Below are positions 43,577 to 46,959 of a stretch of DNA of 58,475 nt, piece by piece. Source of the stretch: a virus; IMG/VR virus record IMGVR_UViG_3300003937_000086, positions 1 through 58,475 of that record. The stretch is one strand, 5' to 3'. The position numbers and the translations under genes were made by a program. Every line of letters begins with the position of its first letter. Position 1 is the stretch's first letter. Below the pieces are notes generated by a model. It was not told where the DNA came from and did not search any database. It saw only the letters and a program-made list of their open reading frames with translations.

Positions 43577-43642
43577 AGCAGTCCCGCTTCGGCGGGGCAT
43601 AGCTGACAGCCTCCGGCCAGTCCGGAAGCTGTCAGCTATGAA
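43577..43642 (+). ncRNA. Structured leader, copy 2
   Basis: Identical over 66 bp to 43301-43366, including the UUCG-capped hairpin, the GCATAG linker and the long second hairpin that ends at the ATG of the AAA ATPase gene (43638). Perfect duplication 276 bp apart with different downstream genes suggests a portable cis-regulatory unit. Confidence 0.7.
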
Positions 43643-44741
43643 AGCAAACAATACCCCGACCGCCAATACGGTCGATCAGATAGAAGCGGTTGCCAAGGCC
43701 GCTCTCGCCTCAGATAACTTCCTCCGGATACTTGGCAGATCCGGAGCTGGTAAAACCACGCTGGCCGCCAAGCTGGCAAAGGCTCTCGGCATCGATGCCG
43801 ACCGTGTCAAACTGGTCAACTTCTCCGGCAGCTTGCCATCACAAGTGATCGGCCAGTTAATGCCCGATGCCGCCAGCCGCGAAAGCTGGCGGACCAAGCC
43901 GATTGACCTGCCGCTCCGGCAGGATGTCGGCGATGATCCATATCTCATCATTCTAGATGAGTTTGAAAGCTGGGAGCAAAGCATACAGTGTCTCTTTCAT
44001 GGATTGAAGTCGCCGGATGGCGTGCCGCGAGTCGGCAGTCATGAGCTTCCGAAAGGCACGTTCGTGGTCTTGACTGGCAATCGTCGGGAGGACGCCGCCG
44101 CCAGCAATACTGGCAAGGCTCCGATCGTCGGCAGATCGTCCTCCATCGAATGGCTCCCGACTGTCAAGTCGTGGGCCGATCACGAAGGTGAACGTGCCGC
44201 CGCAAGTCCGATAGCCGCCTTCCTTGGCTACGCCGCCAAGGCCGGATCGGAAGTCGCCGACTTCTTTTGTCCCGCCCCGCCGAAACCTTGGCGCGGCGAG
44301 CCTTACCCACAGCCCCGTGAATGGTCCGCCGCTCTCGCAGTGGAAGCCAGTCCGGCATGGCCAGCCGATCCGGCATTGCAGAATTTGATTCTGGCATCGA
44401 AGGTCGGCCAGTCCGCCGCCGATGCTTGCACGGCGTTCTTATCGCTGGCCAAGAAGATCTTGCCATTGATGGAGTCAATCCTGAAAGGCGAGGCATCACT
44501 GCCGACATCGCCGCAGGATCGATACGCCATCGCTCACTGTGCAATCAGGAGAGCGATTGACCTTGCCGGTAATGATCCGGAGGCCGCCGTTGCCGGTGGC
44601 CACCTCGATCCGATCATCGAGCGGGTATTACTCCCACTCGGACCGGAAATGAGAATCTGGTCCTTCTCCGCCGCCAAGGCGGCTGGCATACCATTGGAGC
44701 TTCACAGAGCGCAAGCTCAACTCCAGAACCTTAACCTCTAA
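43638..44741 (+). CDS. MoxR-type AAA ATPase, 367 aa
   Basis: Walker A GRSGAGKTT (33-41), Walker B IILDEFE (Asp107, Glu108) and sensor 1 VVLTGNRRED (Asn148) in canonical order. The C-terminal half is Pro/Ala-rich and helical. MoxR-type ATPases work with VWA proteins to activate or assemble targets, and a VWA protein is encoded two genes downstream. Base composition differs from the phage core: Gly/Ala/Pro codons ending in C and a visibly higher GC content suggest recent acquisition. Regulated by leader copy 2. Confidence 0.85.
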   Translation: MKANNTPTANTVDQIEAVAKAALASDNFLRILGRSGAGKTTLAAKLAKALGIDADRVKLVNFSGSLPSQVIGQLMPDAASRESWRTKPIDLPLRQDVGDDPYLIILDEFESWEQSIQCLFHGLKSPDGVPRVGSHELPKGTFVVLTGNRREDAAASNTGKAPIVGRSSSIEWLPTVKSWADHEGERAAASPIAAFLGYAAKAGSEVADFFCPAPPKPWRGEPYPQPREWSAALAVEASPAWPADPALQNLILASKVGQSAADACTAFLSLAKKILPLMESILKGEASLPTSPQDRYAIAHCAIRRAIDLAGNDPEAAVAGGHLDPIIERVLLPLGPEMRIWSFSAAKAAGIPLELHRAQAQLQNLNL

Positions 44742-44759
44742 TCTAGAAAAACCAATACC

Positions 44760-45647
44760 ATGAAAGAATTGAATTCAATACTAATTGCCAAGGTTTCCAC
44801 CGCGAAACCATCACTGACCCGCTCACTTCCGAAACAACTCACTGACCTCTGCCGCCGTGCCGGAGTCGATGAGGCGGAGGTCAACGCACCTTCCGTCAAA
44901 GTTGTGAAGTCGGAGCTGGTGAAAGAAGCCTTCAAACTAATTAACGGAATGACTCCGTTTCTCCGAAAGGGAAAGGTCGGCGTGACCGGAGAGCAACTCT
45001 CCAAAGGCTTGGCCGTTGATGAGATCAACGGCGCGACCTATATCAAGGCCGCCGATGTCGAGGGCATCCAGAAAGAGTTCGACGCCCGTAGGTCAAACCT
45101 CGACAAGCTCCTCGATCAGATCGGGAATCAATACGATTCCCTGATCAGGGAGCGACTGGCAGAGATCGGCAATCTCCGATTCGAGGTCGAAGTTCCAAGC
45201 CGCGAGGAATTCCTCGCCGACTTTGGATTCGACTTGGAATTCCGGTCGGTTGACAGTGGCGTTTCAAACGCCGTCCTCGATCAAGTAAGCGGCGAGGTCG
45301 CCGCCCGACTTCGGGCAAACAATGCCAAGGTGCAGGATGAATTCCGCGCCGCCCATGCCCAGCCGATCCGGACCTGCATTTCGGAGCTGACCGAAACCAT
45401 CGGCCAGCTTGTCGATGGCAAGCGGCTCCGGCAGGAGCGGCTCGACAAGGTCGTGGCCGCCGCCGCCGATATGCGTGAGCAAAATTGGCTTGGCCTGCCG
45501 GACCTCTCCGGTCTGGCAACCAAGCTTGAGGGGCTGGCAGCCAAGAAGGAAGACCTTCCCACTGCCGCCGATAGAGAGGCCCACGCCGACAAGGCAAAGG
45601 CCGTGAAGGCGGAGGCCGAAAACGTCCTCGCCGGATTTGGAATCTAA
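44760..45647 (+). CDS. Coiled-coil partner protein of the AAA/VWA operon, 295 aa
   Basis: Helical nearly throughout: IQKEFDARRSNLDKLLDQIG, AARLRANNAKVQDEFRAAHA, ADMREQNWLGLPDLSGLATK, with Leu/Glu heptads. No catalytic motif. It sits between the AAA ATPase and the VWA gene, with short gaps on both sides, as a third subunit would. A DUF3150-like protein occupies this position in some bacterial MoxR operons; I mention this as a possibility only. GC-rich like its neighbours. Confidence 0.6.
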   Translation: MKELNSILIAKVSTAKPSLTRSLPKQLTDLCRRAGVDEAEVNAPSVKVVKSELVKEAFKLINGMTPFLRKGKVGVTGEQLSKGLAVDEINGATYIKAADVEGIQKEFDARRSNLDKLLDQIGNQYDSLIRERLAEIGNLRFEVEVPSREEFLADFGFDLEFRSVDSGVSNAVLDQVSGEVAARLRANNAKVQDEFRAAHAQPIRTCISELTETIGQLVDGKRLRQERLDKVVAAAADMREQNWLGLPDLSGLATKLEGLAAKKEDLPTAADREAHADKAKAVKAEAENVLAGFGI

Positions 45648-45662
45648 GTAGAAACTGATAAT

Positions 45663-46959
45663 ATGAATAAGCAACAAAGCCTGACACTCTCCGCCTCTTT
45701 ATTGGAGCTGGTCAAAAAGGCTGAAAGAAGACTCCGCCAGTATGGCGGACTGGGGTATCAATCTTACCTCTCGATGCCGCGAGTGCTGACATCGGACACG
45801 CCATACGGCGCGACTGATTCCCGCACCCTGTTCCTTAATCCTGAAGGACTGGCCAAGCTGGCCCGATCATCCGATCCGGTCGGCTTACCGGAAGACTGCA
45901 AACATCGCGGTCGATTACTTGGTCAATGCCCTGATCGATCAGATCAATCGTGAGACGGTCGGCCTCGTGCCATTCCCGATCATCGAGGGAGCATACCTCG
46001 ACCACGCTCTGAGTGATGGCCACGATGCCCTGTCACTGTATCACTTCCTACTGGCCGACAAGCCGGAGGAGGAGGAGGAGCAAGGCGACAGCGACAGCGG
46101 CGACAGCGACAGCGGCGACAGCGACAGCGGCGACAGCGACAGCGGCGACAGCGGCGACAGCGGCGACAGCGGCGACAGCGGCGACAGCGGCGACAGCGAC
46201 AGCGGCGGCAAGCCTTCCGATCCCGATGATCTCTCCGACATTCATGACGGAGATTTCTTCGATCCGGATCTCAAAGGCGATGAGACGGTCGAAGACTTCG
46301 ATCACTCAGTCAATGAGACTATCGAGCAGAACGCCGCTCAGAATGAGATGGATAAGATCGCCGGAATCGGCGGCAGTGATTCCCTCTCGAAAGCAGTGGC
46401 CGATGCTCGCGATCAGTTCCAGAAAATCGACTGGCGTGATCACCTCTCGCAATGGCTATCGTCCTCCATCGCCGGAGGCGAGTATGATGGCATCGATGCC
46501 TCATTCTACTCCGGCACTGGGCTGGTCGAAGATGAGCGATCCTGCCGCAATGTCGGCGAGCTTGTCGTGATCATCGACACGTCCGGATCGGTAGTGAACG
46601 ACGATCCTTTCGTCACCTCCGCTCTCGATCAGATCGAGACGTTGTCTTCCGATGTCGCGCCGAAAAAGATCCACGTCGTTCATGTCGATTACATCGTCCG
46701 GCATCACGAGGAGTTAAACGCTGGCGATCCCGTTGACCGTGAGCTTCACGGCGGCTGGGGAACGCTGTTCAAGCCAGCCTTCGACTGGGTCGAGGAGAAC
46801 GCGCCCGATGCCAAGGGAATCGTTTACATCACCGATGGATTTGCTTCCGACTGGCCGGAGGTCGAGGAGCCATCGGTTCCGGTTCTCTGGCTCGACTATG
46901 GCTACTACCTCCCGCACTACAAATTCGGAGAGGTCGCGACCATGTATCCAGAGAAATAG
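45663..46959 (+). pseudogene. DUF2201-type metallopeptidase-VWA gene, frameshifted
   Basis: Frame one (45663-45953) reads LTSDTPYGATDSRTLFLNPE and then turns to unrelated residues; frame two holds KTANIAVDYLVNALIDQI (45895 onward), a DUF2201 N-terminal-domain landmark that should follow an HExxH helix, which is missing. The second frame then has a Gly/Ser/Asp repeat linker (46085-46207) and a C-terminal VWA-like domain with MIDAS DTSGS at 46576, GGWGTLFKPAF, YITDGFASDW and VLWLDYGYY. So about 25-30 residues including the zinc helix are lost together with the reading frame. An assembly error, a true deletion or programmed frameshifting are possible. Confidence 0.75.
46085..46207 (+). repeat. 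Gly/Ser/Asp-coding repeat in the VWA gene
   Basis: Alternating GGCGACAGC and GACAGC units encode (GDSDS/GDS)n, an acidic flexible linker between the N-terminal part and the VWA-like domain. Confidence 0.8.

Follow-up and report, generated by a model that had tools for sequence, protein, structure and literature searches.

A phage module of MoxR-type ATPase, DUF3150-like and VWA genes as putative exchangeable cargo

The stretch analysed here (the window) is the whole IMG/VR virus record IMGVR_UViG_3300003937_000086, 58,475 bases long, in which three consecutive plus-strand genes encode a MoxR-clade AAA+ ATPase, a DUF3150-like helical protein and a VWA protein whose gene is broken. On balance, we lean towards reading these genes as an accessory (cargo) module of the phage for ATP-driven remodelling and proteolysis of a probably non-virion target. 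The domain content, the gene order, purifying selection and exchange at one variable site are read from the sequences themselves; the activity and its target are proposed from them.

The three genes and the broken VWA frame

The features of the module are as follows, with the basis of each in brackets.
43638..44741, plus strand: MoxR-clade AAA+ ATPase, 367 amino acids (aa) (phrog_1297, Midasin profile, invariant residues)
43734-43757, plus strand: Walker A motif GRSGAGKT (ATPase sequence)
about 43944-43961, plus strand: Walker B motif LIILDE (ATPase sequence)
44760..45647, plus strand: DUF3150-like helical protein, 295 aa (hhalign, hidden Markov model (HMM), structure model)
45663..46959, plus strand: VWA gene, broken, with an N-terminal frame at 45663-45953 and a C-terminal frame at 45919-46959 (L001/L002 alignment)
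45886..45887, plus strand: junction of a 74-bp deletion, HExxH motif lost (L001/L002 alignment)
46084..46213, plus strand: Ser/Asp/Gly repeat linker joining the halves of the VWA protein (direct repeat)
46576..46590, plus strand: MIDAS motif DTSGS (sequence, conservation)

The ATPase matched phrog_1297 in PHROGs (E 3e-26), and a profile built from six members found Midasin best (8e-26), followed by NorQ, CbbQ and CobS. Residues G33, G36, G38, K39, D107 and E108 were invariant when the six sequences were aligned. With both Walker motifs present and midasin/MoxR as the nearest profiles, the protein is assigned by sequence to the MoxR clade. The model of the middle protein was mostly helical (mean predicted local distance difference test score, pLDDT, 82.5). 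When the DUF3150 protein of Synechococcus phage MinM2 was compared with the family of the window's middle protein, hhalign returned an E of 3.9e-5 and a probability of 70%, and the family HMM matched the same MinM2 protein in hmmsearch at 1.7e-5. The window protein itself had no match to Pfam DUF3150 (PF11348) up to E 10 and no convincing match in Pfam or PHROGs, so it is termed DUF3150-like and not a member of the family; the middle protein of the relative L032 scored 23.3 bits, below the curated DUF3150 cut-off of 24.9. A fold search with the middle protein returned generic helical bundles and no significant match, and tblastn of the window protein against phage records found no match.

The VWA gene was read against two close IMG/VR relatives, L001 (ATPase 93% identical to that of the window) and L002 (about 80-81%). 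Its frame opens at ATG 45663 (ORF, open reading frame, 45663-45953), and compared with both relatives 74 bp are absent between 45886 and 45887, out of frame. A start at TTG 45919 was considered and rejected, since the relatives' frame extends upstream and the window carries the deletion; this TTG is merely the first start codon of the downstream frame. The VWA domain of the window matched DUF2201 (PF09967) at 5.5e-15, with 56 bits against a cut-off of 26.4, and in the model of the L002 protein the VWA fold was recovered with Z about 14, the Foldseek matches including MDN1-MIDAS and NorD. The intact VWA proteins of L001 and L002 are 440-445 aa long and carry L-HEALHAMLRH in an N-terminal DUF2201_N domain, which in L002 matched the putative metallopeptidase family PF13203 at 7.4e-11 (42.6 bits, cut-off 23.2). 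In the window copy this HExxH (HEALH) was lost with the 74 bp. The motif was present in 77/77 relatives compared, a set retrieved partly by pattern, and HExxH, Asn106, Asp110 and the MIDAS residues were invariant or nearly so across 61-77 relatives; DxSxS and the conserved Thr and Asp expected of DUF2201 were retained. L003, L004 and L005, which were found by other routes, also carry HExxH. The match list of the L002 fold search was filled by the VWA domain, so that the metallopeptidase half was barely probed; the sequence profile matched M48 peptidases weakly. VWA_CoxE (PF05762) had no match in the window's own record, and NCBIfam gave nothing meaningful, the Ser/Asp repeat attracting spurious adhesin matches. 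PHROGs label the VWA family 'HNH endonuclease' (phrog_1314), and VWA genes in phage records, such as that of Vibrio phage K479 (L220), are annotated likewise.

The first-pass annotation had described a plus-strand operon GC-richer (in guanine plus cytosine) than the phage core, with intact Walker motifs in the ATPase and a helical middle protein. All of this agrees with the present analysis; the module has 57.9% GC against 49.6% in the rest of the window. Its account of the VWA protein stood for the DTSGS motif and the DUF2201 match, and failed where the gene was taken as intact; the metallopeptidase half, whose HExxH the relatives retain, was missed, the motif not being visible in the window.

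The ratio of nonsynonymous to synonymous substitution rates (dN/dS) between the window and L001 was 0.10 for the ATPase, 0.09 for the middle gene and 0.20 for the C-terminal part of the VWA gene. These low values make the break look recent, or an error of a single contig. It is possible, though not what we expect, that the real phage has an intact VWA gene and that the missing 74 bp reflect faulty assembly or a minority variant in the metagenome: the sequence comes from one metagenomic contig, and selection on the VWA remnant is not clearly relaxed (dN/dS 0.13-0.20). However, both flanks of the junction aligned cleanly to the relatives, and no flanking repeat able to explain the loss was seen. 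Because the frame is lost, a full-length VWA protein cannot be produced from the window copy, which is probably dead or protease-less judging from its reading frames; an internal start could still yield a VWA domain without the protease.

Exchange at one site and recurrence across viruses

In G001, G002 and G003 (the records of L001, L002 and L008), the module occupied the same place, between a minus-strand gene block and the gene of a giant polyvalent protein. In the window this giant gene (about 4,300 aa; 1-3591 and 49132-58475, minus strand) spans the contig junction, and its match to ART-PolyVal falls just under that family's cut-off. The contig termini (1-32 and 58444-58475) are 32 identical, overlapping bases. 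This overlap and the gene running across the junction point to a probably near-complete genome, circular or circularly permuted. The module and the adjoining block are on opposite strands.

A 755-aa, putatively structural protein of that block was used as a scan query and returned 49 loci. The variable site was covered through to the giant gene in 14 of these, with the module present in 3 and absent in 11. The VWA gene was not found in the records of 13 relatives that were 78-98% identical in the 755-aa protein; six of these records are 55.8-61.4 kb long, and in them that protein is 94-98% identical. The positive controls G001 and G002 were detected in the same VWA search, and the smaller records may be fragments. 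Wherever the site was readable in module-less relatives it held other genes: in L102 (755-aa protein 98% identical) the flanks were the same, and the module was replaced by a DUF932 gene and small leader-led ORFs (L102:6509-7552). The window ATPase was 93% identical to that of L001 and 81% to that of L002; for the DNA polymerase the values were 82% and 95%. The module is thus nearer to L001 and the core nearer to L002, which points to exchange of the module within this phage group. As G001, G002 and G003 share the position of the module, gain is not distinguishable from loss. The first-pass annotation had suggested an acquired, independently controlled module; its own leaders (described below) and its patchy presence at one variable site bear out the independence, while acquisition is neither shown nor excluded.

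A VWA-based scan, blind to the ATPase, retained 80 viral loci, and an ATPase of the same family was found close to the VWA gene in 74 (median distance from ATPase end to VWA start, 862 bases). In the other 6, the VWA gene started less than 1.5 kb from the end of the locus, which was cut off there. An iterated HMM search found a relative of the DUF3150-like protein in 43/80, and in a few loci its gene precedes the ATPase or trails the VWA gene. Conservation of the three-gene order had been set out beforehand as a check on the module; it held at these frequencies. Isolate Synechococcus phage MinM2 carries MoxR, DUF3150 and VWA genes in the same order as the window. From the recurrence of the order and the purifying selection (dN/dS 0.09-0.20 against L001), sequence comparison indicates that the module is more than a chance arrangement. 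Many other VWA loci (e.g., L031:3942-4607) have a protein of about 220 aa and no known family in the middle position; that it belongs to the DUF3150-like family was not supported (hhalign probability 6%).

In the genome collection, the VWA family was paired with the ATPase in 65/66 loci, and the middle protein was present among these VWA loci only in L152. This contig, binned as an Acidimicrobiaceae metagenome-assembled genome (MAG), holds all three module genes together with the giant gene at 43% identity, and is probably the contig of a related phage within the MAG. A bacterial source of the module was rejected, as the nearest 'bacterial' locus is L152 with its phage giant gene.

Among 51 non-redundant loci, primases and DNA polymerases were foremost among those neighbours of the module that have a known function, with some terminases; none of the 25 commonest neighbours was a capsid, portal or tail family. 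The surroundings were similar in isolates nACB1, K479 and RHph_TM3_14A, and so were those of the ATPase/VWA pair in an N4-like gene list (PMC2784036).

Hairpin leaders and other features of the window

The leaders and associated features are located as follows.
43301..43364, plus strand: leader copy 1, a UUCG hairpin and a hairpin with the AUG of the 68-aa ORF in its 3' arm (direct repeat, fold)
43362..43568, plus strand: ORF of 68 aa between the leaders, function unassigned (ORF list, alignment)
43577..43640, plus strand: leader copy 2, same structure, holding the AUG of the ATPase (repeat, fold, covariation)
46976..47025, plus strand: related double hairpin 3' of the VWA gene, no start codon in the stem (fold; equivalent in L001)

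Two 77-bp leaders (43301-43377 and 43577-43653) were 94% identical. The duplication noted at first pass is therefore real, with the correction that the first copy precedes the 68-aa ORF and not the ATPase; in place of this ORF L001 has an unrelated 71-aa ORF, and L002 has none. Each leader consists of a UUCG hairpin followed by CATAGCTGACAGC...GCTGTCAGCTATG, the final three bases of which are the start codon, and folds at -43.8 kcal/mol (z -6.3 to -6.7). Scanning for the pattern and searching for hairpins before ORFs gave 15 such leaders in seven records (two each in the window, L001, L102 and L112, one each in L002 and L108, and five in L100), all at ORF starts and, wherever the flanks were readable, inside the variable site. 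L100:500-1875 holds a row of five small ORFs, every one of them beginning within a hairpin leader of this kind. When 14 leaders were aligned, both-side changes occurred at 11/25 pairs and 95.7% of cells paired, far above slid controls, a result biased upward because most of the set had been picked by pairing; the leaders from the exact-sequence scan and those of L001 and L002 likewise vary on both arms. Rfam gave no match for the leaders, and adjacent miRNA-like hits were under gathering scores.

A Shine-Dalgarno-like sequence was seen at 1/32 gene starts inspected in the window phage, which suggests a host with Shine-Dalgarno-independent initiation, e.g., Bacteroidota. With Shine-Dalgarno sequences so nearly absent, initiation should be strongly impeded where the start codon is paired, and the leader is a candidate start-codon lock that some factor would open.

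Several other repeats and genes were recorded. The spacer preceding the cargo site contains a pure GGACT/GGGCT pentamer array (42352-42480), and L001 and L102 have other low-complexity repeats around the matching position. A 90-bp direct repeat (41636-41725 and 41755-41844, 94% identical) adjoins the cargo site. Elsewhere, the ORF at 34623-35480 (minus strand) contains a 72-bp tandem duplication (35172-35315, 94% identical), and a glycosyltransferase family 25 gene (27957-28628, minus strand) lies amid otherwise unassigned genes.

Proposed function, rival roles and known systems

Across the clade, a target peptide is held by the VWA domain via its metal site and reshaped by the MoxR ring (PMC7159879). 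By this logic the ATPase of the module would assemble as a ring, the MIDAS domain would capture an acidic residue or peptide of the target, and ATP hydrolysis would pull on or reshape it, while the putative metallopeptidase could clip the target held by the MIDAS. The DUF3150-like protein may serve as an adaptor that joins the ring to the VWA subunit or selects targets. The module-less relatives and the replication-gene neighbours favour a non-virion target, perhaps a host protein, during the early or middle phase of infection. The window copy would at best be a remodeller without protease, given internal-start translation of the VWA half.

Some results weigh against this proposal. The middle protein falls short of the Pfam cut-off for DUF3150, and the conservation of HExxH was partly selected by the patterns used to retrieve the viral loci. 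Moreover, the ATPase-VWA pair may be core in N4-like phages, and dispensability may hold for this lineage alone.

Other roles were compared with the cargo remodeller-protease. One is a chaperone of virion assembly that would also mature structural proteins by proteolysis. Iyer et al. (2021; PMC7824862) put forward such a role, assembly with processing, for this domain pair in group 2.2 jumbo phages, drawing on the tail chaperone of Acidianus two-tailed virus as an archaeal-virus precedent. The first-pass annotation had put virion assembly level with other roles. We consider it unlikely by comparison with the module-less relatives: the six of 55.8-61.4 kb have no VWA gene and an almost unchanged 755-aa late-region protein (94-98% identical), and the module runs opposite to the adjoining block and lies close to replication genes in other phages. 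In this lineage, such a natural presence/absence series speaks against an assembly role that is essential, and it renders the module's function testable. Patchy cargo at a variable site common to other small genes would also fit a conflict system directed at the host, a prophage or a superinfecting phage, with a three-component logic resembling the vWA-MoxR ternary systems of Kaur et al. 2020 (PMC7159879). By that analogy a conflict role can be entertained, yet it seems rather improbable: VMAP, iSTAND and effector domains were not seen in Pfam and PADLOC scans (no dedicated VMAP model was searched), and PADLOC had no match to the middle or VWA protein and only weak P-loop matches to the ATPase. 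Insertion of a cofactor or metal, as by CobS/CobT, NorQ/NorD or the I and D subunits of Mg-chelatase, appears very improbable. The ATPase profile did match NorQ, CbbQ and CobS, and a PHROG named for porphyrin biosynthesis was matched weakly; however, these matches were weaker than that to Midasin, a chelatase or oxidoreductase partner was not seen nearby, and a putative metallopeptidase domain is part of the VWA partner.

A bolder and doubtful extension of the cargo proposal is that the site holds interchangeable genes with AUG-locking leaders, all of which one trans-acting factor could switch on, one cargo being a phage ATP-dependent protease of new architecture (ATPase, DUF3150-like adaptor and VWA-metallopeptidase).

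Midasin, NorQ/NorD, CbbQ/CbbO and RavA/ViaA likewise combine a MoxR-clade ATPase with a MIDAS-bearing VWA domain. Their targets are known, and to our knowledge their VWA partners have no metallopeptidase domain. Closer in domain logic are the group 2.2 jumbo phages, in which a MoxR AAA+ ATPase accompanies a vWA domain with a metallopeptidase fused on its N-terminal side (Iyer et al. 2021, PMC7824862). The two-protein logic and the position of the metallopeptidase N-terminal to the VWA domain are those of the intact L001 and L002 proteins. By contrast, a DUF3150-like gene lies in between here, the module is swappable cargo of a phage of about 58 kb, and the window copy has no metallopeptidase motif. 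In phage N4, gp24 (AAA ATPase) and gp25 (vWFA) are listed as of unknown function (PMC2784036); they too adjoin in a non-structural region, and Schitoviridae phage nACB1 has a pair of the gp24/gp25 kind. In these N4-like examples, however, no DUF3150-like gene was seen between the pair, and identity to the window proteins was below 30%. Synechococcus phage MinM2 (OQ594354) has MoxR, DUF3150 and VWA-like families in the same order, but with extra small genes interspersed and an ATPase only 19% identical. The leaders recall the start-associated inverted repeats (SAS/ESAS) of cluster K mycobacteriophages (PMC3203893), which are also repeated at starts of non-structural genes within one phage group. 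They differ in that the AUG itself is paired, no Shine-Dalgarno sequence is present and the leaders have no SAS consensus; the window has only one site with two mismatches to the 13-bp consensus GGGATAGGAGCCC, far from the leaders.

The ATPase-VWA pair is thus already known in phages (PMC2784036, PMC7824862). New are the recurrent third protein and the cargo/leader arrangement, of which no description was found in the literature searched, where DUF3150 was not mentioned either. The recurrent DUF3150-like gene provides a likely context for the DUF3150 domain, and the hairpin leaders, with the AUG in the stem and no Shine-Dalgarno sequence, are a candidate translational switch common to swappable phage genes.

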